Shown piece after piece: positions 1-11,215 of a stretch of DNA of 11,215 nucleotides. A program made the position numbers and the translations under genes. The stretch is taken from NCBI GenBank assembly GCA_001803565.1, contig MHDQ01000123.1, forward strand, positions 1 through 11,215. The letters are read 5' to 3'. The stretch's first letter is position 1. Each line of letters begins with the position of its first letter. Origin of the DNA: Nitrospinae bacterium RIFCSPLOWO2_12_FULL_45_22 (lineage in GTDB: Bacteria; 2-12-FULL-45-22). The notes below the pieces were generated by a model, which worked only from the letters and a program-made list of their open reading frames with translations, did not search any database and was not told where the DNA came from.

Positions 1-2
1 AT

Positions 3-1397
3 TACTGGAAGATAGTGGCAACCGATAGCCAAGGGGCAACGGCAAGCGGGCCGGTATGGAGCTTCACTACTGGCTCAGTCCCTAATAACCCACCCAAGAC
101 TCCCAGTAACCCTTCGCCGGCTGATGGGGCAACCGATGTTTCGATCAGTGTCAGCTTAAGCTGGAGCGGTGGTGACACTGATACTGGAGATACTATTACC
201 TATGATATCTATTTTGGTGCCAGTAGCAGCCCTACCCTGGTCAAGAGTGGCCTAACGGAGACCAGGTATATCCCTGGTACCCTTGCTTATAGTACTAAAT
301 ACTACTGGCGGGTAGTAGCTAAGGACAATCATGGGGCCGAGGCCGGGGGGTCAGTCTGGAGCTTTGAAACTGGCCCAGCTCCCAATAATCCCCCTCATAC
401 CCCCAGCAATCCATCCCCAGCTAATGGTGCAACTGTGGCATCCATCAGCTTGAGCTTAAACTGGAGTGGTGGTGACCCCGACACAGGAGATTCGGTGGCC
501 TATGATGTCTATTGGGATGGTGCAGGTAATAACCCTGATCCACCCCTGTGGGCAAGCAACCAGAGGGATACTACCGTTGATGTAAGCCCTCTCCAGAACC
601 CTTCCACAGTCTATTACTGGAAGGTGGTCGCCAAGGATAGCCATGGGGCTGCCGGTACCAGCCCGATATGGAAATTTACTACCGCTGCTACCCTTACTAA
701 CCCACCCAATACCCCTACTGGCTTGAAGGCTACCATCACGGGCAAGGCCGTACATATCCAGTGGCAGGCCAATAGCGACTCCAACCTGGATCATTACAAT
801 CTCTATGTAGGGTATTCATCCAAAAAATATGACATGACCGGTAGTCCCTTCAATGTAAGCAATATTACCTCCCTTACTGCCTCTGATATACCGGAAGGTA
901 CTTATTACCTGGCCCTGAGTGCGATCAACAGTGCAGGCAAGGAGAGTAGCCTATCAGAAGAGATAAAGGTAATGGTAGGTGCTAAGCCGACCATTACCAT
1001 AAGCAGTAATAAGAATAGCTATTCCCCAGGCGATACCTTTACCCTTTCCTTTGCCCTCAGCAACCCTACGGCTACTACTCAGGTAGTAGATGCTTTCCTG
1101 GGTATTATAGCCCCCAGCGGTAGCATCTACTTTTTCGATTCCTCTCCCTTTCAAAGGACTCTGGTACCAGCCAGGGCCGATGACTCCAGAACTTTTACCC
1201 CAGCCGCCACTTCTTTGGAACTGAGCCCAGGTTATGATTTCCCTTTGACCCCTTACTTTTCTATGACCTTACCCTCTGGCTTACCTGAAGGCACTTATTA
1301 TGCCTTTGCTGCGGTAGCTGAGCCCGGCTCTGTCCAGGCAGGTAATCCTAAGATAATGGGAGAGATCAGTATTAGTTCCTTTATATATTCTCCTTAA
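3..1397 (+). CDS. Repetitive Ig/fibronectin-III-like surface or secreted protein, 5' part outside the window
   Basis: The frame is open to the left edge. The first visible residues, YWKIVATDSQGA, match the internal repeat ends YYWRVVAKDNHGA and YYWKVVAKDSHGA, so the GTG at 15 is not the true start and the gene enters from the left. Counting from that GTG, I see the end of one domain (to about 20), two complete about 100-residue beta-sandwich units (about 24-120 and 124-223), a fibronectin-III-like domain (about 230-320) and a different C-terminal beta domain (about 324-460). The repeats share NNPP.TPSNPSPA.GAT, SWSGGD.DTGD and YYW.VVAKD..GA, which are typical of extracellular bacterial Ig/FN3 repeats used for adhesion or as spacers in exported enzymes. 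The signal peptide and any catalytic domain would lie upstream and are not seen. There is no LPXTG or membrane anchor at the C-terminus. The exact partner or substrate cannot be inferred. Confidence 0.85.
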   Translation, partial: YWKIVATDSQGATASGPVWSFTTGSVPNNPPKTPSNPSPADGATDVSISVSLSWSGGDTDTGDTITYDIYFGASSSPTLVKSGLTETRYIPGTLAYSTKYYWRVVAKDNHGAEAGGSVWSFETGPAPNNPPHTPSNPSPANGATVASISLSLNWSGGDPDTGDSVAYDVYWDGAGNNPDPPLWASNQRDTTVDVSPLQNPSTVYYWKVVAKDSHGAAGTSPIWKFTTAATLTNPPNTPTGLKATITGKAVHIQWQANSDSNLDHYNLYVGYSSKKYDMTGSPFNVSNITSLTASDIPEGTYYLALSAINSAGKESSLSEEIKVMVGAKPTITISSNKNSYSPGDTFTLSFALSNPTATTQVVDAFLGIIAPSGSIYFFDSSPFQRTLVPARADDSRTFTPAATSLELSPGYDFPLTPYFSMTLPSGLPEGTYYAFAAVAEPGSVQAGNPKIMGEISISSFIYSP

Positions 1398-1663
1398 TGG
1401 GGTCTTAGGAGCTTGTCCCTAATTACCCTTGATAAAAGCCCAGGAAATGACCTGATTCATACTGACCTTTAGTCTGAAAAGAAGGGGGGAATCTTAAGGT
1501 CAGAAAATCTTTGGAATTAATGCTTGCTACAGAATGTATGCATAATCCTTGACAATGAATGGGTTAGCAATTATCATGAGTGATGGATCAACTAAATTCA
1601 TACAGAGGAGCAAATATTTGAAATATTTCGTATATACCCTGCGCTTGAAGGATAGTCAAACTG
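1398..1663. other. Intergenic region with hairpin, promoter and a gene stub
   Basis: This stretch holds an inverted repeat, CTGACCTT (1462-1469) and AAGGTCAG (1496-1503), with a 26-base loop. It could be a processing or weak termination hairpin after the surface-protein gene, but it has no T-run. Next come a sigma-70-type promoter (1549-1577) and the truncated GIY-YIG-like start described separately. Confidence 0.5.
1549..1577 (+). promoter_or_regulatory. Sigma-70-type promoter for the downstream three-gene operon
   Basis: A perfect -35 TTGACA (1549-1554) is followed, with exactly 17 bases of spacing, by a -10 TATCAT (1572-1577). Transcription would start near 1584. The first translation signal downstream is the GAGGAG at 1605-1610 in front of the GIY-YIG-like stub, so the promoter may originally have belonged to that gene. 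Confidence 0.6.
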
Positions 1664-1671
1664 ATGATTGA
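1618..1671 (+). pseudogene. Truncated start of a GIY-YIG nuclease-like gene
   Basis: Seven bases after a strong Shine-Dalgarno (GAGGAG, 1605-1610), a TTG opens a 17-codon frame reading LKYFVYTLRLKDSQTDD before a TGA at 1669-1671. The stretch KYFVYTLRLKDS closely resembles the first beta strand of small GIY-YIG proteins, whose N-termini typically read like KYYVYILRLKDGS. The expected continuation with the YIG motif and the catalytic Arg and Glu is absent in all frames. The stub overlaps the ATG at 1664 of the next gene. I infer a remnant whose remainder was replaced when the downstream operon arrived. It could instead be a short upstream leader peptide that resembles the family by chance, because only about 12 residues support the match. 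Confidence 0.35.
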
Positions 1672-2326
1672 TAAAAGGGAATTCCAACTACGGACATTCT
1701 CGGTGGTAGTTGTGGCGAAGAATCATAACCCCTCTCTTCTAAATCCTGATTTCTTGCTAATACGTCACATCGTGCCCGACGGATATGAGCTAGCCGAACC
1801 ACCCATCACTACCCCTCCAGTGGCTATAGTCAAGTACAAACAGGGGATTTCCATCACGGTCGAGATGGAGAAACTTCAAGTTATCGAAACCACTGCTGGG
1901 GAATTCCCGGAATCGCCGTTGGCTACGGATATCGCATCCAAGTATGTTCATACGCTCCCACACGTTCGATATACTGGCGTAGGGATCAACTGGAGTGGTT
2001 TTTTGAGGAAGAAAGATCCCGACCTTTGGATATGCAATCGCTTCTTGTCGAAAGGACCATGGAGGGACGACCCGCACAAACTTGTTTCTTCGGTGGTACG
2101 TCTCACGTATGATCTCGGGAATATCCGGTGTAATCTCTCTCTGGCTAGTGGGCAAATTTTTGAGGAAGAGACACCGATTCCTGTTGTGACCGTAGATGTA
2201 AACTACCATCACGATATAACAGCATACCCAGGGGATGATGATGTTGTTGGAGTGATCAACTGCTGGAAGGATCGTCTTCACCATTTTCTACTATTGATTC
2301 GGGATGTGCTGGATTTGGAGGCCTAA
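1664..2326 (+). CDS. Unrecognised 220-residue protein, first gene of a VapBC-like operon
   Basis: I do not recognise this family. It is a soluble protein with no signal peptide or membrane segment. The N-terminus, MIDKREFQLRTFSVVVVAK, looks like a beta-alpha element, followed by a proline-rich turn (TTPP) and a mixed alpha/beta body. Conspicuous stretches are GINWSGFL, PDLWICNRFLSKGPW and VDVNYHHDI. No nuclease or nucleotide-binding motif is evident. The start has a weak AAGGA (1648-1652) 11 bases upstream. Its stop overlaps the next ATG by one base (TAATG), so it is translationally coupled to the antitoxin candidate and then to a PIN toxin. That order suggests a third component or regulator of the toxin-antitoxin unit, but this is inference from position only. 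Arginine codons CGT/CGC/CGG and CpG are more frequent than in the flanking genes, which fits recent acquisition. Confidence 0.7.
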   Translation: MIDKREFQLRTFSVVVVAKNHNPSLLNPDFLLIRHIVPDGYELAEPPITTPPVAIVKYKQGISITVEMEKLQVIETTAGEFPESPLATDIASKYVHTLPHVRYTGVGINWSGFLRKKDPDLWICNRFLSKGPWRDDPHKLVSSVVRLTYDLGNIRCNLSLASGQIFEEETPIPVVTVDVNYHHDITAYPGDDDVVGVINCWKDRLHHFLLLIRDVLDLEA

Positions 2327-2733
2327 TGAGACTCATAACAGAAACTACCAACCCTAAAAGTGCAGAGCTTGCCGATAAAGTTGGTGCGCTATTAAATGAT
2401 TTAGTTCTGGTTAATACTGAGCGGATGAGTCTTACAGGAGTGAGTTTAGGCTCCTGGCTAGAGACACTTCCGACCGGGAACTTAGCTACCGATCGAGTAG
2501 AAAAGATGGGCAGGATCTGGGTCAAACACTGGCCGGAAAAGAGTTTTGAAGTTGGAGGTGCACCGGTTTCGGTAGGTAGCGAAAGCACTGACTCACTGGT
2601 CTCGATGGAGGCGATGCTTAGCCCTGATAGGAGAGCTATTCTGGAACGCGCTAGAGCTATCCGTCGAAAGATCGGTCCAGTCCCATGGAAAATCTCTGAT
2701 ATTCTTCGCCAGATGGACGAAGAAAATGAATGA
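2326..2733 (+). CDS. Putative VapB-like antitoxin
   Basis: This small protein lies between the unrecognised 220-residue protein and a PIN-domain toxin, overlapping the first by one base and the second by eight. GGAGG sits just ahead of the ATG, within the end of the preceding gene. The last 35 residues (RRAILERARAIRRKIG, then PWKISDILRQMDEENE) form a charged helix plus tail like the toxin-wrapping C-terminus of VapB-type antitoxins. The first 100 residues are longer than usual for a VapB, and I see no clear AbrB, ribbon-helix-helix or Phd motif. The antitoxin role follows mainly from gene order and the tail. DNA binding and autoregulation are plausible but not shown by the sequence. Confidence 0.6.
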   Translation: MRLITETTNPKSAELADKVGALLNDLVLVNTERMSLTGVSLGSWLETLPTGNLATDRVEKMGRIWVKHWPEKSFEVGGAPVSVGSESTDSLVSMEAMLSPDRRAILERARAIRRKIGPVPWKISDILRQMDEENE

Positions 2734-3193
2734 AATGCTAGTCCTAGACGCCTCTGTGGTAGCCAAGTGGTACCTCAATGACGAAAAACTCATTGAGAAG
2801 GCTGAGGAGTTCCTCATCCGTATCCTCGCCGGTCAGATCGAGGCGCATGCCCCTGAGATATTGCGTTATGAGTTGGGCCATCTATTAACTAAAGCTCAAC
2901 GCCAGCCTCAGAGGCCGATTGATCCTGCTCAAAGCGAGGAGGTGTACCGCGAATTTTGTTTACTCCCGATCACTTTTCACCAGCTCGACGATACTGAACG
3001 GCAAGAAGTTCTTGCATTCGCCAATACTTTTCGGCGGGGATTTTACGATTCTTCCTACGTCTGGCTTGCAGGACACCTCGGCTGTCGGTGGCTTACGAGT
3101 GAGCAGCGTTACGGAGGCAAACTGCCATTAGACTACCCAACCCAACGGATCCTTACCCTGGAATCATATAAACAGTCATCCAGAAGGACATAG
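2726..3193 (+). CDS. vapC: PIN-domain ribonuclease toxin, VapC family
   Basis: PIN-domain proteins are Mg-dependent endoribonucleases; as VapC toxins they cleave tRNA or other RNA and are held inactive by the cognate antitoxin. The 155 residues have the family's usual length and fold order. The first acidic residue is in LVLDASVVAKW (D8), the second in ILRYELGHLL (E49), the third in YDSSYVWLA (D108), and the fourth position is in TSEQRYGGKL, with Glu126 where many relatives have Asp. The gene overlaps the antitoxin candidate by eight bases (ATGAATGA), a classical toxin-antitoxin arrangement. A second ATG three codons inside is a possible alternative start. The acidic set looks complete, so the toxin is probably active. 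The RNA target cannot be read from the sequence. Confidence 0.88.
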   Translation: MNEMLVLDASVVAKWYLNDEKLIEKAEEFLIRILAGQIEAHAPEILRYELGHLLTKAQRQPQRPIDPAQSEEVYREFCLLPITFHQLDDTERQEVLAFANTFRRGFYDSSYVWLAGHLGCRWLTSEQRYGGKLPLDYPTQRILTLESYKQSSRRT

Positions 3194-3278
3194 CCATTAA
3201 CAAATAGGCTTTAATCAGTACTGGCTCACCATTGACTTTTTGATTGTGCAACAAAGGGAGTACAAAATATTCCTTTCC

Positions 3279-3292
3279 AGGAGTAAACTCCT
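3279..3292. repeat. Short palindrome, possible operator
   Basis: AGGAGTAAACTCCT is a perfect 6-base inverted repeat around AA. It is about 65 bases before the higBA -35 box and 86 bases after the vapC stop. It could be a repressor site or a weak hairpin; there is no T-run after it. Confidence 0.35.
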
Positions 3293-3356
3293 ATGACCCC
3301 ATTTTAGAGCCCTACAAAAGCCAAACATCTTCAGTACCAATTTAACCTGATCTCCC

Positions 3357-3387
3357 TTGACATCACATAGCATTTATGCGATATATT
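3357..3387 (+). promoter_or_regulatory. higBA promoter with an operator-like palindrome between the boxes
   Basis: A perfect TTGACA (3357-3362) is followed by TATATT (3382-3387) with a 19-base spacer; GATATA at 17 bases is an alternative -10. The spacer holds GCATTTATGC (3370-3379), extendable to a 16-base imperfect palindrome (3367-3382). That is the place where an XRE antitoxin such as HigA would bind to repress its own operon. Transcription would start within a few bases of the ATG at 3392, so the message may be nearly leaderless. Confidence 0.5.
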
Positions 3388-3391
3388 ATTT

Positions 3392-3454
3392 ATGGACTGG
3401 CGGGTATAATTCTACCAGGAAGCGGATGGGAAAGAACCTGTAAAAGATTTCCTC
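3392..3454 (+). pseudogene. 5' end of the higB-like gene, cut off by an in-frame ochre stop
   Basis: Reading from the ATG at 3392 gives MDWRV, a TAA (3407-3409), then FYQEADGKEPVKDFL running straight into the frame that begins at ATG 3455. The family (phage-derived Gp49-like/HigB, PF05973) characteristically starts with W.I.FYQ..DGK.PV.DFL, so this is clearly the native N-terminus. One substitution at the codon after Val5 has made a stop. No ATG, GTG or TTG lies in frame between the stop and 3455. Other genes here also end in TAA, so the codon is not reassigned. Confidence 0.7.
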
Positions 3455-3781
3455 ATGGAATTAAACATTCCCAGTCGCCAGAAGATATTTTCTTATCTGG
3501 ATCTCTTGGAAGAAAGGGGATTATTGCCTTATCCCTATTCCCGAAAGATTGAAGGGATAAAGAAGCTTCGAGAACTAAGGGTAGAATTCGCTTCCAATAT
3601 ATACCGGATTTTCTATTTTGTGCACAAGGATAAGCAGATCATTCTCTTACATGGATTCATAAAGAAGAGCCAGAAGATACCATCAAAGGAAATAGCCGTA
3701 GCCCAAAGACGGTTAAAAGATTTTTTGGCTAGAGACAAGAAGGAAGGGGGGGTTAGAGATGGCCAGGGAAAGCGGTTTTAG
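3455..3781 (+). CDS. higB: HigB/Gp49-like RelE-superfamily toxin, N-terminally shortened
   Basis: HigB-type toxins are RelE-fold mRNA interferases neutralised by an XRE antitoxin. Residues 10-75 carry the family signature: KIFSYLDLLEERG, then KLRELRVEF..NIYRIFYF and IILLHGFIKKSQK.P..EI..AQRRLKDF. The catalytic-face Arg and Lys residues of the C-terminal half are present. This start is the first one available after the ochre stop at 3407-3409. It lacks a Shine-Dalgarno and leaves out roughly 20 native residues, including the first beta strand. The product, if made, is probably unstable or inactive. About 15 residues at the C-terminus (KEGGVRDGQGKRF) read through the antitoxin's ribosome-binding site, and the gene overlaps higA by 23 bases. 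Confidence 0.7.
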   Translation: MELNIPSRQKIFSYLDLLEERGLLPYPYSRKIEGIKKLRELRVEFASNIYRIFYFVHKDKQIILLHGFIKKSQKIPSKEIAVAQRRLKDFLARDKKEGGVRDGQGKRF

Positions 3782-4070
3782 AAGATTATTAGACGAACAT
3801 CTTAAAGACCCAGAATTTGCTAAAGGGTATATGGAAGAACTGGCTAAGACCAGGATAGCCGTTCAGATAGCTTCCCTCCGGGCGAAACGTGGTCTATCCC
3901 AGACAGATTTGGCCAAAAAGATAGGTACTACTCAGTCAGCTATAGCCCGGTTAGAAAATCCCAATTATGGCCGTGCATCTTTGCCCACCCTGGAAAAGGT
4001 TGCTGAGGCTTTGGGTGCAAAGTTAGAGATTCGGCTTATTCTTAATAGGGAATACCAAAAGACAGCATGA
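3759..4070 (+). CDS. higA: XRE-family antitoxin, HigA-like
   Basis: The N-terminal 30 residues (with FRRLLDEHLKDPEFAKGYMEEL) are typical of HigA antitoxins partnered with Gp49-like toxins and would contact the toxin. Residues 36-92 are a Cro/C1-type HTH: IASLRAKRGLSQTDLAKKIG, then TTQSAIARLENPNYG and LPTLEKVAEALG. It should neutralise HigB and repress the operon through the palindrome upstream. A strong purine-rich Shine-Dalgarno (AAGGAAGGGGGGG, 3740-3752) precedes the ATG inside the toxin gene, so the antitoxin can be made well even though the toxin is broken. The protein appears complete at 103 residues. Confidence 0.88.
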   Translation: MARESGFRRLLDEHLKDPEFAKGYMEELAKTRIAVQIASLRAKRGLSQTDLAKKIGTTQSAIARLENPNYGRASLPTLEKVAEALGAKLEIRLILNREYQKTA

Positions 4071-4080
4071 AAGATTACTT

Positions 4081-4136
4081 TGGGGGATAGGGATGCTAGC
4101 CCCGATAAGCCGGTAGTCCCTGGCCGGTTTCCCCCA
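4081..4136. other. Compact nested stem-loop in the gap after higA
   Basis: TGGGGGA (4081-4087) pairs perfectly with TCCCCCA (4130-4136). Inside, GGGA (4090-4093) pairs with TCCC (4117-4120), and CTA with TAG just within that. It is GC-rich and lacks a 3' T-run, so it is not an ordinary terminator. It may be a leader structure for the gene at 4174 or a transcript-end stabiliser. I could not match it to a known riboswitch. Confidence 0.4.
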
Positions 4137-4154
4137 TACTTAACCACCCAGGGA

Positions 4155-4172
4155 GCTACTAAGGGAGGTAGC
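4155..4172 (+). promoter_or_regulatory. Hairpin presenting the Shine-Dalgarno of the 455-residue protein
   Basis: GCTAC (4155-4159) and GTAGC (4168-4172) form a 5-base stem, and AAGGGAGG (4161-4168) lies almost wholly in its 8-base loop, directly before the ATG at 4174. The SD is strong and the arrangement could gate ribosome access. The stem is short, so this may be chance. Confidence 0.35.
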
Positions 4173-4173
4173 A

Positions 4174-5541
4174 ATGGACGATCAAGAATATTGGGACATA
4201 GAATTTAAGACTACCGGGGACTTTCTGAACCATTGCCCAAGTGATGTTCGGGCGCATGCCATCTTCCAAATAGCCAATTACCTTACCTCCCACCCGACAC
4301 TACCATTCACCCCACAGGATAAGACATTAGGGGATCGGTTTATCATCTCAGACCCCATCTTGCAACGTGTGATCTACTATACATACAGCCCCTTAGAAGA
4401 AATAGATATGCGATGCAAGATGCTTGCGACAACCGATATTATCAGGGATGTGGGCTATATATACTATGTCCTGGGATACCCCAAGCTTCAGGATAGTCCT
4501 TTACTCAAGAGTTTTTTAGAGAAGCTAAAGAAAGATTTCTCTAGGGTGCTGAATGCTGACATGCGTAAGCTTGCGGGGGCTGAAGGGTCGATAGCCGAAC
4601 TTAGGGCTAATAGCTACCATGTTGAAGTGGATAAAGATGGTAAACCTACCAAAATAATTATCGACCAGTCGCCCTGGTATAGGATTGAGCACTATATCAA
4701 GCAGAAGGAAGGCCATTACTACGTTCTTGATGATAGCCCCGATTCAATTAGTGCCCTTTCGTCACCTGACGAGCATCTAATAGAATGGTATCAATGGTTT
4801 GAAGATGAAAAAGGTCTTCAGGATAATGCTTATTCAGGTAAAACCAAAATCTATATCCACGACAAAGATGGAAAGCTAATTGAAAAGTACCCATTCGCCC
4901 TGGGGCCTAAATACACGCCCTTGAGGGAGAAGATTCATAAGAAATACTGGTTTGAGCGCAAGGCATTTTGGGTAGAGAAGGGACAAGGATGGGATACCAG
5001 AGAAGAGGACCGCATTGACCGCAGGTGGGACCTAGAGCAGATTTTCAGGAAGGCTATTATGGAGTGGGAAGGAGATGTGCCCCCTCCTGCTTACTTCAAA
5101 AAAGCTTTAGAATGGGGTTTTATGAACCTTGAGATGAGCTTTAGGAAGAGATTCGTCCCCCACCCTGATGATCCCTCTAAGTATATTCTTAGGGAGGATC
5201 TTGATTTTAGTGGTGGCTCCTTAAATGATCGTTTAAAAGATGAGAAGGGTGAAAGTGAAAAGGTCAAAGAATGGATTGACCTATTTCCTGATAAGAAAGA
5301 TGACATAACAACCATAGAGACCTTGAATACATTATCTCGCCTTATCGAACGTGAATCTCATCCAACAGATAAACTAATCTTGCTCGATTTTTGGGATATA
5401 TGCCAAAATGATACCGAACCAAGAAGTGATGCAGAGATAGCCCGCCAGCTCAAAACCCAAAGGGTTCACCTTTCCCCCCAGCGTATAGGCCAACGGCGCA
5501 AAAGGCTTATGCGCACCCTCCAAGAAATCTTCTGCAAATAA
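4174..5541 (+). CDS. Unrecognised 455-residue protein with C-terminal sigma-4-like HTH
   Basis: I do not recognise the first 370 residues. They are hydrophilic, with many Trp and Tyr (WYRIEHYIKQ, EWYQWFED, KYWFERKAFWVEKGQGW), no signal peptide and no membrane segment. The C-terminus resembles sigma-70 region 4 or a LuxR-like HTH: a helix with LILLDFWDICQND, then SDAEIARQL, a turn, and LSPQRIGQRRKRLMRTL, about residues 390-450. It therefore probably binds DNA and may be the transcriptional switch of the element. The start is fixed by AAGGGAGG five bases before the ATG. It lies downstream of higA and, after a 183-base leader, upstream of the replication operon, on the same strand. It could equally be a defence or host-takeover protein; the sequence does not decide. 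Confidence 0.65.
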   Translation: MDDQEYWDIEFKTTGDFLNHCPSDVRAHAIFQIANYLTSHPTLPFTPQDKTLGDRFIISDPILQRVIYYTYSPLEEIDMRCKMLATTDIIRDVGYIYYVLGYPKLQDSPLLKSFLEKLKKDFSRVLNADMRKLAGAEGSIAELRANSYHVEVDKDGKPTKIIIDQSPWYRIEHYIKQKEGHYYVLDDSPDSISALSSPDEHLIEWYQWFEDEKGLQDNAYSGKTKIYIHDKDGKLIEKYPFALGPKYTPLREKIHKKYWFERKAFWVEKGQGWDTREEDRIDRRWDLEQIFRKAIMEWEGDVPPPAYFKKALEWGFMNLEMSFRKRFVPHPDDPSKYILREDLDFSGGSLNDRLKDEKGESEKVKEWIDLFPDKKDDITTIETLNTLSRLIERESHPTDKLILLDFWDICQNDTEPRSDAEIARQLKTQRVHLSPQRIGQRRKRLMRTLQEIFCK

Positions 5542-5724
5542 CTTATCCCACAACCAGAGCCTTTTAATCAAGCTCACCTTTGCTCAACCTCCCCAAACGT
5601 TTATTTAGACAACAATAGGAATTTTTTTTTGCCGGGGGTTTCGATTTCACCTCCTGGCTGCACACTTATATAGTATGACCAGGAATAGAATATCAGAATC
5701 CAATAGATAAACGGAGGAAACGGG
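5542..5724 (+). promoter_or_regulatory. Leader and possible promoter of the replication operon
   Basis: No gene is seen here. A run of nine T (5622-5630) is followed by a hairpin, GCCGGGGG (5631-5638) with CCTCCTGGC (5650-5658), containing two G-U pairs. A possible -10, TATAGT (5669-5674), has only a weak -35 (TTTCAC, 5645-5650, 18-base spacer). The T-run lies before rather than after the hairpin, so this is not a plus-strand terminator. GGAGG at 5713-5717 serves the next gene. Confidence 0.35.
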
Positions 5725-5928
5725 ATGATTTTATATGTGGCTATCAGCCCAAAGGGTGTCCACTACGTTGAAGTCGAAGCGCTAATGGAGGAGGAAGAAG
5801 TGGCGAAGGACTTTTATCGTTTGGTTAAGCCATTGCTGAGAGACCTGGGTAAAGCTATTTGTCAGCTTAATAATCGCAGAGGGGAAGAAGATGCCAATAA
5901 TGGCAAGGGGAGAAAGATAAGCGGATGA
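5725..5928 (+). CDS. Small hypothetical protein upstream of the helicase
   Basis: This 67-residue protein has a good Shine-Dalgarno (GGAGG, 7 bases before the ATG) and overlaps the helicase start by four bases (ATGA), which points to translational coupling. It begins with a beta-hairpin-like segment (MILYVAISPKGVHYVEVEAL), has an acidic patch (MEEEEV), then an amphipathic helix (DFYRLVKPLLRDLGKAICQL) and a basic, glycine-rich tail. I do not recognise the family. Being the first gene of the replication operon, it may assist or regulate initiation, but that is only from position. Confidence 0.6.
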   Translation: MILYVAISPKGVHYVEVEALMEEEEVAKDFYRLVKPLLRDLGKAICQLNNRRGEEDANNGKGRKISG

Positions 5929-7259
5929 CTGTATCAAATCTTCATCCAGAGCACTTAGCCGACCTGCGCACGAGCGGGTTAGCGGATGAGGCTATAAGAG
6001 TCCATGAGATAAAGGGATTAAAAATGGCAAAAAGCGAGAGACCAGAGCCCATATTCATAGCTAATCGTGTGGAGCAGGAATTTGATCTGATCTTCTATGG
6101 GGGGCAGTTTTGGTATTACAATGAGGGCTGTTACAGGCCAGCCGAGATGGAGATTCGGGAATTCTTGCAGACCGTGCTGGGCAAGGACTTTTCATCACAC
6201 TTTGTAAAGGAAGTTTTTTATGTATTGGAGAGTCGTTGCTTTAAAAAGGCTATCGCTTCTGATCCTGGGTTCATAAACCTCCGAAATGGGGTATATGACT
6301 GGATAAATGCTAAACTGTATCCGCACTCAGAGATGCCAGATAAGAGATTTATTTATCAGTTGCCGGTCAGTTTTAACCCGAAAGCTAAGACTCCAAGAAT
6401 CGAGAAATTTTTGAGTGAGGTAGTAAGACCTGAAGACAAAAAGGCTTTGCTACAGTTTGTTGGTTATTGTCTTATTCCCACGACTAGGTTCGAGAAGGCC
6501 ATGATGCTGTTGGGGGAAGGGGCAAATGGCAAGAGTACCTTAATCAAGATACTTATAAGTTTGCTAGGCAAGGATAATGTCTCAACTTTATCACTCCATG
6601 ACCTCTCCCATCGCTTCAGGCTGGCTGATTTGGTGGGAAAGCTCTTGAACGTCTTTCCCGATCTGCCATATAGAAGACTTCAGGATACAGCAAATTTTAA
6701 GGGCCTGGTAAGTGGCGACCCCATAACTGCGGAACGGAAATATCAACGACCTTTTACATTTGAGAACTTTGCCAGGCTGGTCTTTTCCACTAATAAATTG
6801 CCACCGACCCTGGATGTATCTCCGGCATTTTTCAGGCGGTGGTTACTTATTGAATTCCCAAATTCGTTTTATGGCAAAGATAGAGACCCTGGATTGCTGT
6901 CCCGATTGACGACCAGAGAGGAACTAGAGGGATTCTTGCTAATGGCCATAGAGGGGTTGAATTCGCTTTATGAGGCTGAGGAATTTACGGAAAGTCAAGA
7001 CATGAAGGATTTGAGAACCGAATATGAAAGAACAAGTAACCCGGTTAATGCCTTTCTTGAGGAGCAATGCCAAGTCGACGCAGATGCTGAAATAGAGAAT
7101 GCAGAGCTGTTCACAGCATTTCGTAGGTACATGTTTAAAGAGAAATTACCTTCAATAGGACGTAACGACTTTTATAAAGAGTTGAAAAAAATAGTCCCTT
7201 CGCTTGTGGAAGTCAGGGATTCATCCAGACGGTACCGGGGGATAAAAGTTATATCCTAG
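5925..7259 (+). CDS. D5/P4-type superfamily 3 helicase, phage or plasmid replication protein
   Basis: This is the replicative helicase of phages and satellites, a hexameric ATPase that unwinds the origin. Visible features are a D5_N-like region with FINLRNGVYDW (about 116-126), Walker A GEGANGKST (197-205), a Walker B region LLNVFPDLP (240-248), the family stretch FKGLVSGDPITAERKYQRPFTF split around 258-279, the sensor FSTNKLP (287-293) and the arginine pair RRW (304-306). Unlike P4 alpha, there is no primase domain. Residues 5-24 (NLHPEHLADLRTSGLADEAI) look like the opening of the DUF3854/TOPRIM-like primase family, whose remaining domain is missing. An internal AAGGG (6012-6016) and ATG at 6024 (Met34) would give a shorter start. 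It is coupled to the small gene upstream and followed by a candidate origin. Confidence 0.9.
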   Translation: MTVSNLHPEHLADLRTSGLADEAIRVHEIKGLKMAKSERPEPIFIANRVEQEFDLIFYGGQFWYYNEGCYRPAEMEIREFLQTVLGKDFSSHFVKEVFYVLESRCFKKAIASDPGFINLRNGVYDWINAKLYPHSEMPDKRFIYQLPVSFNPKAKTPRIEKFLSEVVRPEDKKALLQFVGYCLIPTTRFEKAMMLLGEGANGKSTLIKILISLLGKDNVSTLSLHDLSHRFRLADLVGKLLNVFPDLPYRRLQDTANFKGLVSGDPITAERKYQRPFTFENFARLVFSTNKLPPTLDVSPAFFRRWLLIEFPNSFYGKDRDPGLLSRLTTREELEGFLLMAIEGLNSLYEAEEFTESQDMKDLRTEYERTSNPVNAFLEEQCQVDADAEIENAELFTAFRRYMFKEKLPSIGRNDFYKELKKIVPSLVEVRDSSRRYRGIKVIS

Positions 7260-7364
7260 ACACTTTAGACGGTTTCTACTTATACTGTTATTTTACAGAA
7301 TTTCAATAAGGATAATAAAAATAACAATAAGAAAAAAACTGTCTAAAGTGTCGAAACTGTCTAA
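7259..7364. other. Candidate replication origin: repeats flanking an AT-rich segment
   Basis: GACACTTTAGACGGTTT (7259-7275) is the inverted partner of AAACTGTCTAAAGTGTC (7336-7352), with a single mismatch over 17 bases that would be a G-U pair in RNA. AAACTGTCTAA recurs directly at 7354-7364, 18 bases after its first copy at 7336-7346. The 60 bases between the arms are very AT-rich (for example GGATAATAAAAATAACAAT). Iteron-like repeats beside an AT-rich unwinding stretch, directly after a replicative helicase gene, are what an origin looks like. It could instead be an operator pair for the next gene. Confidence 0.45.
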
Positions 7365-7387
7365 GAAGTGAGGGGAGGGTTATAAGA

Positions 7388-8050
7388 ATGGATGAACTAT
7401 TGGCCTTTAGGAGAAAAAGAAAAAAGAATGGTGGGCATGTCTCTTCTTTCTTCCCCCAGCCAAACAATAAGGAGAATCAAGAGAGGGCTTCTTCAGTTTT
7501 GCCTCTCAGGGAGGAGGAAGCCAAGTTCTGCTCATGGCGAGAGATGGCCGTCTCTGCTGAAGAGTGCGTTAAGCCATGCTATGAGTTCGATCCGGGTAAG
7601 GTCAAAGAGTGCAGGCATCTAGTCACTTGGTGGAAAGGGCGGCTTAAATGGTTAGAGGCAAATAACATAGGGGCAAATAGGGATAAGCAACCATCCCAGG
7701 TGATAGCCTTGTCTCCTGAAGCTGATTGCTTTGACCCGGATGGCGCCCTTGCTTCCCTGCTAGAATGCGCTGAGAGAAAAGGTATAAGTGATGCCCAGGT
7801 AGCCAGCATCGTTGATGACCTTATCCGTGCACAGTCCCTTAAGAGCCCCTGGGGGATCAAGATAAAGGGTAGCCCGGCCTTAGGCGATTATTGGATTGTC
7901 TCAGATGAAGAGGCCAAAAAGCTGATCCCTACCCACGAGGTCATCTTTGCCCAGGATGATATCCGGCTACTGGCAGAAGTAAGGGAAATATTTGGTATCA
8001 AGTCCGTTGAGGTAAAGAAGTATGACACAGGAAAACAAGCTGGTATCTGA
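7388..8050 (+). CDS. Hypothetical protein of the replication operon
   Basis: I do not recognise this 220-residue protein. It begins with a strongly basic segment (RRKRKKN, 9-15), a low-complexity linker, then a mostly helical body with WWKGRLKWLEANNIGANRD and later CAERKGISDAQVASIVDDLI. The C-terminal part (GDYWIVSDEEAKKLIP, then FAQDDIRLLAEVREIFG) looks like a small alpha/beta domain. There is no signal peptide. A GGGGAGGG (7372-7379) provides the ribosome-binding site. It overlaps the PC4-like gene by 29 bases, so the two are probably made together. A role with the helicase or origin is inferred from location only. Confidence 0.65.
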   Translation: MDELLAFRRKRKKNGGHVSSFFPQPNNKENQERASSVLPLREEEAKFCSWREMAVSAEECVKPCYEFDPGKVKECRHLVTWWKGRLKWLEANNIGANRDKQPSQVIALSPEADCFDPDGALASLLECAERKGISDAQVASIVDDLIRAQSLKSPWGIKIKGSPALGDYWIVSDEEAKKLIPTHEVIFAQDDIRLLAEVREIFGIKSVEVKKYDTGKQAGI

Positions 8051-8261
8051 AATCCAGAAGAACGACATAGAGGTAGTCCGGGTATCACTTACCAAATACA
8101 AAGGGAAGGACTTCTTTGATCTCAGACTTTATTACAGAGATGATGAAGGGGAATGGAAGCCCACCAAGAAAGGTATATGCTTATCACAAGGGCTGTTTCC
8201 TGAATTAAAACAGGCTATACTTACGCTAGAAAAGGCTTTGATTAATCAGAAGAGAGAATAA
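8022..8261 (+). CDS. PC4/p15-like single-strand DNA-binding protein
   Basis: The PC4 fold binds single-stranded DNA as a dimer; bacterial and phage members act in replication, repair or transcription. Residues 17-66 show the pattern: IEVVRVSLTKYKGKDFFDLR, then LYYRDDEGEWKPTKKGICL and LFPELKQAI, i.e. four beta strands with the W.PTKKGI.L motif followed by the helix. At 79 residues it is a minimal single-domain form. It starts inside the preceding gene with GAGG upstream, and its stop overlaps the next ATG by one base. In this element, where no OB-fold SSB is seen, it is the natural candidate for the single-strand-binding partner of the helicase. Confidence 0.78.
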   Translation: MTQENKLVSEIQKNDIEVVRVSLTKYKGKDFFDLRLYYRDDEGEWKPTKKGICLSQGLFPELKQAILTLEKALINQKRE

Positions 8262-8659
8262 TGGCATACGAAACACAACAAAAACTAACACGTAACCAGC
8301 TTAGGGCTATCCCCTATCTTGTGTCCTGCAAGACAATTGATGAGGCGGCCCAAAAGGCCCGGGTATCAAGGTGTCATATCTATAAGTGGTTAGAAGCCCC
8401 CTCCTTTAAGGAGGAGTTGCAGCGGCAAAGGGACATAGTAACCAGGGAGGCGCTGGAGAAGCTCAAGGCTTCTATCACCAAGGCCATTGATACCCTGGTT
8501 TCTTTGCTAATCTCAGATAATGAAAACATAAAGCTTAGGGCATCCATGTCCATCGTTGATTACACCCTCAAATCAATCGAGTTGCAAGACCTGGAGAAAA
8601 GAGTATCAATCCTGGAAGAACAACTGGCAAGCAAAGGGAGGCGGGTGAGATGGGGCTAA
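8261..8659 (+). CDS. phBC6A51-like HTH protein
   Basis: The N-terminal third is a homeodomain-like HTH (LTRNQLRAIPYLVSCKTIDE, then AAQKARVSRCHIYKWLE), followed by a long helical region and a C-terminal coiled coil (LEKRVSILEEQL). This layout matches the small phage family named after phBC6A51, distantly resembling the DNA-recognition domain of small terminase subunits. No large terminase subunit is nearby, so a regulatory or origin-binding role is as likely as a packaging one. It is translationally coupled at both ends: TAATG overlap with the PC4-like gene and a 10-base overlap with the next gene. Confidence 0.7.
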   Translation: MAYETQQKLTRNQLRAIPYLVSCKTIDEAAQKARVSRCHIYKWLEAPSFKEELQRQRDIVTREALEKLKASITKAIDTLVSLLISDNENIKLRASMSIVDYTLKSIELQDLEKRVSILEEQLASKGRRVRWG

Positions 8660-8889
8660 AGAGACGAGTAGATAGGCTAGAGGAAATAGCGCAGGACGAT
8701 GAATTATCTGATCTGCCCAGAGTAATCATAGAGGTTAAGGGCCGATATTATGCTGGTCAGGTTCGGGGAAATGAACCCTTAAGCGAAGAAGAGATCAAAG
8801 CCCTCGAATCCAAAGACAAATACAGGCAAATCCTCTGGGTACATATTCATGACCCACGCACAACAGCAAAGGAGCAGCATGGGGGATAA
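8650..8889 (+). CDS. Small hypothetical protein coupled to the HTH gene
   Basis: This 79-residue protein starts with a basic-acidic helix (MGLKRRVDRLEEIAQDDE), then one or two beta strands (PRVIIEVKGRYYAGQV), an acidic helix (LSEEEIKALES) and a short tail. It overlaps the preceding HTH gene by 10 bases with a GGGAGG upstream, so the pair is probably co-translated. The leading helix could pair with the coiled coil of that protein. I do not recognise the family. Its last sense codons carry the GGGGGA that may serve as ribosome-binding site for the next gene. Confidence 0.6.
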   Translation: MGLKRRVDRLEEIAQDDELSDLPRVIIEVKGRYYAGQVRGNEPLSEEEIKALESKDKYRQILWVHIHDPRTTAKEQHGG

Positions 8890-8905
8890 CTAAGTCAACA
8901 CTTAG
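8890..8905 (+). promoter_or_regulatory. Hairpin between a Shine-Dalgarno and its start codon
   Basis: CTAAGT (8890-8895) and ACTTAG (8900-8905) form a perfect 6-base stem with loop CAAC. The ATG at 8910 has no Shine-Dalgarno at the normal distance, but GGGGGA at 8881-8886 does lie upstream. Folding the hairpin would reduce the spacing from 23 to about 7 bases, as in the structured start of phage T4 gene 38. Confidence 0.45.
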
Positions 8906-8909
8906 AATA

Positions 8910-9209
8910 ATGGGTTTGGATAAGCAAATAATCAGTTTGTACCAGCAAGGCAAAGGCATAAAGGCCATAGCTAAAGAACTGGGGACTTATCCTAATGCCA
9001 TAAAAAGGGTTCTAGTGAAAGTGGGAGCTTATAATTTCTCCAGGAACTATAGGCTGAAGGGTGACAGGGTGACAAGATCAGCATCTGAGAGAGAATGCGC
9101 TGTTTGCAGGAACGAAAGGGAAGGTATTTCCGTATGTCCTACATGCTGGGCCTTAATCAGACAAACATTAGAAATTAATCAGGCAATCTTGAGATATAGA
9201 CATAAATAG
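8910..9209 (+). CDS. HTH plus zinc-knuckle protein
   Basis: Residues 3-37 form a resolvase/homeodomain-type HTH (IISLYQQGKGIKAIAKELG, then TYPNAIKRVL). Residues 63-79 hold Cys63-x2-Cys66-x9-Cys76-x2-Cys79 (CAVC...CPTC), which should bind one zinc. The C-terminus is a helix (ALIRQTLEINQAILRY). It is a 99-residue DNA-binding protein, probably a regulator of the element. The architecture repeats in the protein at 9646, with different sequence. The start depends on the hairpin-bridged ribosome-binding site; no better in-frame start is seen. Confidence 0.65.
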   Translation: MGLDKQIISLYQQGKGIKAIAKELGTYPNAIKRVLVKVGAYNFSRNYRLKGDRVTRSASERECAVCRNEREGISVCPTCWALIRQTLEINQAILRYRHK

Positions 9210-9250
9210 GGATAAACCACTATAACCCCCATTAGTGTATGGAGTTAAGC

Positions 9251-9361
9251 ATGGAGAGCATAGACCACAAAATTAAAGCCCTGTCTAAGGGTGAACCCCT
9301 ATCCCATGATAGAGGACTGATGAACTGTATTACCAGGAATATAGACAATGCTACAAGATAA
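9251..9361 (+). CDS. Possible 36-residue small protein
   Basis: A GGAG (9241-9244) lies six bases before an ATG that opens 36 codons (MESIDHKIKALSKGEPLSHD, then RGLMNCITRNIDNATR) and a TAA at 9359-9361. Composition is charged and helix-prone, with one Cys. It fills an otherwise empty gap between two DNA-binding protein genes on the same strand. I do not recognise it. The support is a good ribosome-binding site, position and sensible amino-acid content only. Confidence 0.4.
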   Translation: MESIDHKIKALSKGEPLSHDRGLMNCITRNIDNATR

Positions 9362-9403
9362 TAACCTCCTGATAGCCCAATATTATGAAAAGGAAACAAA
9401 CCA

Positions 9404-9652
9404 ATGCGTAAGCTAGATGCCGCACAACGTTTAGGGGTTTCTACTGCCACCTTAAAACGGTTCTTACTCCAGGATAGCCGTTATCATGGTTATCTACTTA
9501 AGCGGACTCCTGGGGGCCACTATCGCTTTACCGAGGAAGATGTCCGGCGGCTTGATTATGCTATGACACAGGCGGGTATGCAACGCCATCCTGAGAGGGT
9601 TATGTTCCAGCAAAGAGGAAGAGGGCAAAGTAGAAGGATGAGAAGGTGGTAA
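9404..9652 (+). CDS. MerR/BldC-like DNA-binding protein
   Basis: The N-terminal 52 residues are a winged HTH of the MerR/BldC kind: KLDAAQRLGVSTATLKRFL forms the helix pair, RTPGGHYRFTEEDVRRLD the wing and following helix. The characteristic .TPGGH.R. signature is intact. The tail (QQRGRGQSRRMRRW) is very basic and probably contacts DNA nonspecifically. It lacks the effector domain of true MerR activators and at 82 residues fits phage or element regulators and excisionase-like factors. The AAGGA upstream is a moderate ribosome-binding site. The gene overlaps the next one by seven bases. Confidence 0.75.
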   Translation: MRKLDAAQRLGVSTATLKRFLLQDSRYHGYLLKRTPGGHYRFTEEDVRRLDYAMTQAGMQRHPERVMFQQRGRGQSRRMRRW

Positions 9653-10065
9653 GAAGCCTCAAAGAATACGAAGCATGGCTCTCATTCATGGAGCAGCGCA
9701 AAACCCGAATTAAGGAGCTTTATCTCCTCCAGGGCAAAGGGCAGCACCAAATAGCTCGGATTATAGGCATTTCTCAGCCGGGCATAAGGAAGCACTTGGC
9801 CAGGATGAATTTGCTAATCCCCAAAAACAGCACTTCTCCAGACGGTGTCCCCCTTCCCATTACCTTGAAAGAGGGTGAGTTTATCAAGGTAGAACCTGGC
9901 GGGTATTCATGGGGGAAGCCTAGCCTGGAGATAGGACGTTGTGAACGTTGCCGGGGTTTCTTTATCAGAGGATATACCGGAATGCGTTTCTGTTGTGATG
10001 CCTGCGGGTCTAGCAATCCGTGTACCTGTGGCACGTGCAAAAGGGGAAAAGTAGTTATCTCGTGA
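9646..10065 (+). CDS. HTH plus zinc-ribbon protein
   Basis: Residues 20-54 form an HTH (RIKELYLLQGKGQHQIARII, then GISQPGIRKHLARM). A proline-rich beta linker follows, then a cysteine-rich end with Cys99-x2-Cys102, Cys116, Cys117-x2-Cys120 and Cys126-x-Cys128-x2-Cys131. The first and third pairs make a classical zinc ribbon; the last three cysteines may form part of a second site. The predicted start is a GTG at 9646 overlapping the preceding gene by seven bases. An ATG at 9688 is an alternative that would keep the HTH. Its layout parallels the 99-residue protein at 8910. It is likely a DNA-binding regulator of the element. Confidence 0.65.
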   Translation: MVRSLKEYEAWLSFMEQRKTRIKELYLLQGKGQHQIARIIGISQPGIRKHLARMNLLIPKNSTSPDGVPLPITLKEGEFIKVEPGGYSWGKPSLEIGRCERCRGFFIRGYTGMRFCCDACGSSNPCTCGTCKRGKVVIS

Positions 10066-10073
10066 TAGGTTAT

Positions 10074-10289
10074 ATGGACAAACGACTTCTCACATTAAAA
10101 GAAGCGGCTCGATACCTGGGCAAAACCGATAAGGCCCTTTATCTCTCTGTGATGAGAAAGGAAGTCCCTTTTCGTAAATGGGGCAAGAAACTGATCTTTG
10201 ACCGGATGGAATTGGATAAGTTCATCTCTACCTTGCCAGGTGTGACATTTGAGGATGTATTGGCCAATAAATACTCCCCTCTAAGATAA
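10074..10289 (+). CDS. xis: Excisionase-like HTH protein
   Basis: This has the compact winged-helix pattern of the excisionase/HTH_17 family: LLTLKEAARYLGKTDKALYL, VMRKEVPFRKWGKKLIF and DRMELDKFI. It is 71 residues from this ATG. A GTG at 10020 would add 18 residues, but they overlap the preceding gene and do not look like part of the domain, so I prefer 10074, eight bases after the previous stop. It is the last gene before the repeat-rich sequence and the broken tRNA. That is the expected place for a directionality factor acting at an attachment site. The fold is also used by simple transcription factors, and no integrase is seen beside it. Confidence 0.65.
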   Translation: MDKRLLTLKEAARYLGKTDKALYLSVMRKEVPFRKWGKKLIFDRMELDKFISTLPGVTFEDVLANKYSPLR

Positions 10290-10309
10290 TGCCTTTCCTG
10301 TAGCATTAT
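10286..10309 (+). other. Hairpin overlapping the stop of the excisionase-like gene
   Basis: ATAATGC (10286-10292) and GCATTAT (10303-10309) form a perfect 7-base stem with a 10-base loop. The stop codon lies inside the first arm. It is AT-rich and not followed by a clear T-run, so it would be a weak terminator at best; an Xis or integrase site is an alternative. Confidence 0.35.
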
Positions 10310-10565
10310 TGACCTATTACACGGTTCTTAAAAACATTCACCTTTAGCACAAGATAATTTGATATATCTAGCAATTTCTAGTCGGCTTAAACAAACCCTT
10401 ACCAGATAAGCATTTCAGTAGAAAATATAGTAGTTAAAATAGTAGTTACTCCAGTGAAAAAATGGGGGGAAATGAGAGGAAATGAGAGAAGGTAGAAATT
10501 GCCGTTTTAGCTAATAAAATAAGGGGTTTAGCCTATCTAATAAGGATTTGACCAAACCCCTTTAA
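10310..10565. other. Noncoding repeat-rich region next to the tRNA junction, candidate attachment-site arms
   Basis: No gene is seen. Repeats present are: GCAATTTCTA (10371-10380) inverted at 10493-10502; ATAGTAGTTA direct at 10427-10436 and 10439-10448 (12-base period); GGAAATGAGA in tandem at 10469-10478 and 10479-10488; CTAATAA at 10511-10517 and 10537-10543; and AAGGGGTTT (10521-10529) inverted at 10554-10562. Such clusters are typical of integrase and Xis arm-binding sites. The assignment is inference. Confidence 0.45.
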
Positions 10566-10607
10566 CCGCCTTGGCAAGGCGATGCTCTACCGCTGAGCTA
10601 TTCCCGC
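10566..10607 (-). pseudogene. 5' half of tRNA-Gly(GCC), truncated after the anticodon arm
   Basis: The minus strand reads acceptor GCGGGAA, TA, D arm GCTC-AGCGGTA-GAGC, A, and anticodon arm TCGCC-TTGCCAA-GGCGG with anticodon GCC (10573-10575), which is bacterial tRNA-Gly. The variable loop, the TTCGAAT T-loop and the 3' acceptor strand TTCCCGC are absent; unrelated sequence follows. Integration of an element at the anticodon arm is the simplest explanation; a plain deletion is the alternative. Because the 3' half is not restored here, this copy cannot give a working tRNA. Confidence 0.8.
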
Positions 10608-10684
10608 AATACATTATTTATCAAGCCTTTTAGAAGGAAGTAGTATAGAGTTATAATGAAAATAGCAATTATTTCAGATAAATT

Positions 10685-10737: not shown

Positions 10738-11215
10738 TTAATTATGGTTTTGCTTAATATATTCGACCCCGGCGCGCAGGGCCTTCTTGTTTAACCCTAT
10801 CATGGCCTCTTTACCTTCTTCTTTTAAGGAATCTGTCAAAGTCTCTTCAATAATATCCAGTGGCAATGCCTCGGTAAGGCCCAGATAAGCCCCTAGAAGG
10901 ACCAGGTTCGCCACCCGGGGAGAACCATTTTTCTGGGCTAGCTCGCTAGCCGGTAAAGCAATAACCTTTAAGTCTTCCCGTTTGATCTTCCCCACGATAA
11001 GGGAGCTATCATAGATAAGAGTTCCACCCGGTGCAATAGTACCTTCATACATATCTAACGATCTCTGGTCACAAATGATCATGATCTCTGGCTCTGAGAT
11101 CAAAGGAGAATATATATCTTCATCGGCAGTTATTACATAGCAAGCAACGGTGCCACCCCGCATAAAGGTCTCATAGGTAGGAAACCAGGTTACATTTTTA
11201 AAGTGGTTCAGGCCG
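10738..11215 (-). CDS. 2-oxoacid:ferredoxin oxidoreductase gamma subunit, start outside the window
   Basis: The enzyme oxidatively decarboxylates a 2-oxoacid (pyruvate, 2-oxoglutarate or a branched-chain acid) to acyl-CoA with ferredoxin as acceptor in the cytoplasm of anaerobes. The frame is open to the right edge and its first residues, GLNHFKNVTWFPTYETFMRG, are the family's conserved middle segment, so the Met encoded at 11163 is internal. Then follow GTVACYVI, SPLISEPEIMIICDQRSLD, a GG turn and NLVLLGAYLG near the helical C-terminus. The start and the thiamine-binding partner subunits would lie to the right. The gene is read towards the element and appears to be chromosomal. Which 2-oxoacid is used cannot be told; a KorC- or VorC-like label would be a guess. 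Confidence 0.85.
   Translation of the reverse strand, partial: GLNHFKNVTWFPTYETFMRGGTVACYVITADEDIYSPLISEPEIMIICDQRSLDMYEGTIAPGGTLIYDSSLIVGKIKREDLKVIALPASELAQKNGSPRVANLVLLGAYLGLTEALPLDIIEETLTDSLKEEGKEAMIGLNKKALRAGVEYIKQNHN

Follow-up and report, generated by a model that had tools for sequence, protein, structure and literature searches.

A partial tRNA-Gly gene at the border of a probable integrative element

The window, by which we mean the whole stretch of DNA that was analysed (11,215 bp, all of contig C123), comes from an assembly of 3.67 Mb in 321 contigs that is 85% complete. On its minus strand, positions 10607 to 10567 are identical to nucleotides 1 to 41 of a tRNA-Gly(GCC), as judged against the intact gene at C222:1202-1276, and the match stops at the outer base of the anticodon stem. 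No complete tRNA was found by ARAGORN in the whole 11,215-bp window, and the Rfam tRNA match at 10602-10539(-) reached 26.2 bits, which is below the gathering score of 29. The original prediction had described a truncated tRNA-Gly with its first 42 nucleotides intact; the truncation was confirmed, with a length of 41 rather than 42 nucleotides. It had further assumed that this half keeps its own promoter, and that assumption found no support, since no sigma-70-like site was found upstream on that strand. Upstream of the half and codirectional with it lies korC (10738..11163, minus strand), which encodes a gamma subunit of the POR-family 2-oxoacid:ferredoxin oxidoreductases (Pfam POR, 5.9e-25) and which we assign to the host flank.

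The identity to contig C222 runs 26 bp upstream beyond the tRNA start, giving 67 exactly matching bp in all (10567..10633, minus strand; C222:1176-1242). For 67 identical bases, chance is not a serious explanation, and we read them as an att direct repeat that is composed of the 26-bp upstream flank and the tRNA 5' half and has the same orientation relative to the tRNA at both junctions. The anticodon stem-loop at which the identity breaks off, CGCCTTGGCAAGGCG (10567..10581), is dyad symmetric, and we infer that it contains the crossover region. Directly 3' of the orphan half, a hairpin of 13 bp followed by a U-rich stretch (10521..10562, minus strand; MFE -21.6 kcal/mol, z -2.5) is conserved in a sister element end on contig C154. 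This hairpin is a possible terminator that may end transcripts of the orphan half; it is absent from the output of our terminator scan because its loop exceeds the length allowed by the scan.

Adjoining the att site is a gene for a small HTH_17/AlpA-like protein (10074..10289, plus strand; Pfam HTH_17, 1e-6; PHROG excisionase/regulator, 3.6e-5), probably an excisionase or regulator. The only phage-like genes in the window encode a D5-type primase/helicase (5925..7259, plus strand; Pfam DUF5906, 6.7e-24; PHROG DNA primase, 8e-95) and a small-terminase-like HTH protein. No capsid, portal, large terminase or tail genes were detected among the scanned ORFs of the window, part of the element being unassembled, and the window portion of the element contains no tRNA gene. 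Viral contigs held no relative of the primase or of the integrase described below and no copy of the 41-nt half, and phage records contained only distant primases (∼30% identity).

Several other features were observed in the same region. A long inverted repeat (GACACTTTAGAC...GTCTAAAGTGTC) at 7253-7358, just after the primase gene, may have a role in replication or regulation; the eukaryotic microRNA families matched there are surely spurious hits. Two toxin-antitoxin-like pairs were seen, namely, a Gp49/HigB-like toxin with an HTH antitoxin (3455-4070) and a PIN-domain gene after a small ORF (2726-3193). An Rfam int-alpA RNA match at 4080-4153 (+) sits between a HigA-like gene and a 455-aa ORF without a Pfam or PHROG match. 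At 33.0 bits it is below the gathering score of 35.8, and it was not reported upstream of the integrases, so we rejected it as evidence for the element. A similar leader (GGGGATAGGGA..CTAG..CCCGA) precedes the integrases on contigs C222 and C80 and occurs again at C222:29.6 kb; the leader with GGGGATAGGGA may be common to the element family.

The second junction and the origin of the orphan half

Contig C222 begins with a 112-bp leader, which is followed by a tyrosine integrase gene (113-1195), 6 bp of spacer, tRNA-Gly(GCC) (1202-1276) and tRNA-Cys (1287-1361). The integrase is encoded by a full-length ORF of 360 aa (Pfam Phage_integrase, 1.3e-35), and its catalytic R, K, HxxR, H and Y residues are invariant in the integrase alignment. 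The junction identity breaks off on this other side inside the integrase coding sequence, so that the att repeat includes the last integrase codons. When the 3.67-Mb assembly was searched for the tRNA-Gly(GCC) 5' half with up to 3 mismatches allowed, only two copies were recovered, one in the window and one at C222:1202. The 3' half is present in a single exact copy in the assembly, and a second match, with 2 mismatches, is part of tRNA-Gly(TCC) on C207.

Joining host flank to host flank in silico yielded one intact tRNA-Gly identical to the C222 gene, while joining element end to element end yielded an attP without a tRNA gene. Since the joined flanks give one intact gene, and since this is the sole tRNA-Gly(GCC) in the assembly, the 5' half would have been brought by the element, displacing that of the host. 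We thus consider it highly probable that the window contains the non-integrase junction of an element residing in tRNA-Gly(GCC), with the front half of the gene supplied by the element and the host's own half (10567..10607, minus strand) displaced, a pairing read from two separate contigs, C123 and C222, and not seen as one molecule. If C222 represents the other end of the element, everything to the left of the window junction would lie inside it, so that the interior would comprise window positions 1..10566, with its left extent beyond the contig end and its integrase end at C222:1-1242.

The paired junctions support the integration at the anticodon arm that had been predicted from the window. 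One of the two proposed outcomes, which places the missing half at a distant junction, where it is attached to an element-borne 5' half, agrees with the integrase, 6-bp spacer, complete tRNA-Gly(GCC) and tRNA-Cys on C222. The expected 3' half does exist, with the loop TTCAAAC instead of TTCGAAT and on C222 instead of further left on C123, where it could not be because the window is the whole contig. In the other outcome, integration would have destroyed this tRNA-Gly copy without ever restoring it, leaving the orphan as a broken gene. Such a loss would be in line with the lack of a complete tRNA in the window and with the element sequence that follows nucleotide 41, but C222 carries the same 67-bp repeat, an integrase and an intact rebuilt gene (71.2 bits), which is the single tRNA-Gly(GCC) that ARAGORN gave over the tRNA loci when such genes were counted in the assembly. 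We therefore regard destruction as very unlikely: the gene was not lost, because the element-supplied front half rebuilds a complete tRNA at the C222 border.

Further evidence for the pairing comes from a candidate arm-type integrase site in the window, GTAACTACTATTTTAACTACT, which contains two AACTACT units (10429..10450, minus strand) and is repeated exactly over 22 bp at C222:1126-1147. At each junction, the 22-bp word AGTAACTACTATTTTAACTACT is found within the element and with unchanged orientation: on C222 it falls towards the end of the integrase gene, and in the window it is ∼120 bp from the element's border. Its position suggests an arm-type site. For the two 200-bp stretches compared, the longest shared word had 22 bases, versus a maximum of 12 in 1000 shuffles. 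Throughout the assembly, a 21-mer of the site was found only at four element ends, on C80, C123, C154 and C222.

The arm-type repeat also bears on the question of whether the two contigs could belong to different elements integrated in tandem, with the far end of one in the window and the integrase end of the other on C222. In keeping with a tandem arrangement, C123 and C222 are separate contigs, and the genome has related elements and repeated occurrences of similar leaders. Against this, the arm-type repeat is identical on both sides, and the 5' half occurs in only the two copies described above, whereas a simple array should have one more copy at its internal junction (in an assembly that is incomplete); we judge a tandem array to be improbable. 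Nor do these sites fit with an accidental partial duplication or a stray tRNA fragment that arose without site-specific recombination. While tRNA fragments of several origins are known (PMC9897764), the repeat seen here extends 26 bp beyond the tRNA, stops at the anticodon arm and is accompanied by arm-type sites and an integrase, and the same plan is found at other tRNAs in this genome and in others, making the probability of a stray fragment close to negligible.

Uninterrupted tRNA-Gly(GCC)-tRNA-Cys pairs are present in many other, distant genomes, which shows only that the pair is commonly uninterrupted; no empty site was found at korC-like gene loci in relatives.

For an element with its front half of tRNA-Gly at the integrase end, the following course of events can be proposed. 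Recombination by the tyrosine integrase would take place between attP and the anticodon arm in the host's one tRNA-Gly(GCC) gene, the attP being placed directly after the integrase gene and containing a copy of the tRNA 5' half plus the 26-bp upstream flank. With the crossover presumably occurring within the anticodon loop, integration would join the element's 5' half to the host's 3' half, generating an intact tRNA that starts 6 bp past the integrase stop. The host's original 5' half would be stranded at the opposite junction, the one seen in the window. Excision, for which the AlpA-like protein (10074-10289) might act as the excisionase, would restore the original tRNA-Gly gene. In the integrated state, the rebuilt tRNA-Gly would depend on promoter sequence carried by the element. 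A weak sigma-70-like site (9/12), of a kind expected by chance, ends 6 bp before the C222 tRNA-Gly, with its second hexamer inside the shared 26 bp; this position would be suitable for transcription to begin at the first base of the tRNA.

Sister elements in the same genome

A second integrase, 66% identical to the first, is encoded at C80:2978-4048 and lies 13 bp before tRNA-Arg(CCG). Nucleotides 1-42 of this tRNA recur at the very end of contig C137, which ends at nucleotide 42, with different DNA preceding them. The C80/C137 pair follows the same plan as C123/C222, here with a 42-nt repeat.

The third element end, C154:1-199, is 89.4% identical to window positions 10363-10561 and has the same arm site in addition to the conserved hairpin, and it abuts the anticodon arm and the 3' half of tRNA-Phe(GAA). 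The same element end is thus joined to a tRNA 5' half on C123 and to a 3' half on C154. Judging from these sequences, a single element end joins tRNAs in both orientations, which the dyad symmetry of the anticodon arm permits. An intact tRNA-Phe was not found in the incomplete assembly, in which the integrase end of the Phe element is unassembled. Two sister ends (89% identical) of one genome, attached to the 5' half of one tRNA and the 3' half of another, form a natural comparison, and they make the idea of two orientations based on anticodon-arm symmetry directly testable.

A fourth, more distant element has the classical layout: a displaced 3' half of tRNA-Leu(CAG) adjoins an AlpA-like gene at C222:20.5 kb, and the intact tRNA-Leu(CAG) on C56 faces an integrase of 28% identity. 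We also observed a partial tRNA-Arg(GCG)-like 3' half (25.6 bits) that starts near the anticodon arm at G000:C76:5532-5595, possibly a displaced half from a further element.

The integrase lineage and known tRNA-targeting systems

Scanning the integrase alignment against GTDB genomes, and adding integrase relatives and extra loci, gave a sample of 131 loci. These were classified by the presence of a tRNA within 150 bp after the integrase stop, a codirectional tRNA being scored as 5'-type and a facing one as 3'-type. A tRNA was adjacent at 69 of the 131 loci (28 codirectional, 41 facing). The resulting share of ∼40% 5'-type loci holds for this lineage only and not for integrases at large, because the sample was drawn by similarity to 5'-type integrases. 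For the tree we used the 68 loci of sufficient length (27 5'-type and 41 3'-type). The two types cluster on the tree, yet they are mixed, with 12 changes of state versus 21.6 in shuffles. A single clade of 5'-type integrases was rejected given these 12 changes, at least 6 of which are forced by well supported branches.

When nine 5'-type loci were searched upstream, a displaced 5' half was found on the same contig at four, each beginning at or next to tRNA nucleotide 1 and ending in the anticodon arm (∼nucleotides 38-44). The halves belong to tRNA-Ser in G088 (∼12.4 kb away), tRNA-Met in G195 (∼23.5 kb), tRNA-Gln in G196 (∼4.3 kb) and tRNA-Arg in G202 (∼11 kb, 45/45 identical). In G088, two positions differ between the copies of the tRNA-Ser half, which would be expected if the element copy and the host copy had different histories. 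In G043 (∼40 kb searched), G193 (∼21 kb), G201 (∼7 kb to the contig end), G030 (∼37 kb) and G035 (∼4.5 kb), no displaced half was found, and these five are therefore 5'-type by position only. We tentatively suggest, as a possibility rather than a likelihood, that the anticodon arm serves this lineage as an orientation-blind target, that its members would have switched repeatedly between 5' and 3' halves, and that, in the 5' mode, an essential single-copy tRNA would come to be transcribed from the integrase side.

The 5'-half arrangement is an already known but uncommon kind, of which this is a well documented new case. The Islander database lists 159 islands with a 5' tDNA fragment versus 3,760 with a 3' fragment (3,919 in total; PMC4383910). 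Like the element described here, its 5'-fragment islands have a tyrosine integrase, an anticodon-centred site and, at opposite ends, an intact tRNA and an orphan 5' fragment; an integrase by the att site, an intact tRNA with a same-orientation 5' fragment and an end of identity in the anticodon arm are all present in our case, on two contigs. Unlike in the Islander cases, the 5' design is repeated here within one integrase lineage (27 of the 68 scored), the distance from integrase stop to tRNA start is usually below ∼30 bp, and one of the sister elements in this genome is integrated in the opposite orientation. The archaeal pTN3-like integrases employ a 5' half of 41 bp, and the integrase promoter is left to transcribe the rebuilt tRNA; similar cases have been called rare in bacteria (PMC8371274, PMC5495485). 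In the pTN3/TKV4-type elements of the archaeal Thermococcales (PMC5495485, PMC8371274), attP lies inside int and integration splits this gene, whereas here attP lies just after int and overlaps only its last codons, so that int stays intact. It is from the Islander and pTN3 precedents that we place our case in a known, uncommon kind.

The classical 3'-half elements, which include most tRNA-targeting phages and ICEs, use the same enzyme family, and 41 of the 68 related integrases are of this type; in contrast to the present element, it is the 3' half that they bring, and the tRNA keeps its own promoter. In tRNA-dependent lysogeny (PMC10865867), integration likewise takes place at a tRNA, and the split host gene is compensated for. 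There, however, the tRNA is not rebuilt and the phage carries a whole extra tRNA gene, while in our case the junction itself rebuilds the tRNA.

Elements of the 5'-half kind would part a host tRNA from its promoter, here the only tRNA-Gly(GCC) in the assembly, and the host would therefore have to rely on element DNA for its expression. Two points seem less familiar, namely, how often a single lineage uses the 5' design and the finding of both orientations in sister elements that share a genome; our search found no paper on either, which is a weak test given that most subscription papers lay outside it. Searches for 3' tRNA fragments alone would miss ∼40% of the tRNA-adjacent members of this lineage as sampled here.

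Two individual genomes deserve separate mention. Desulfobacterota bacterium AH_259_B03_O07 (G203) contains 21 integrase-family matches in one genome, and both orientations occur among its integrases adjacent to tRNAs. The sole genome from the same order has, on contig G001:C31, the remnant of an integrase (69% identical over its first 87 residues) directly ahead of an intact tRNA-Arg(GCG); this looks like a decayed element of the same type.
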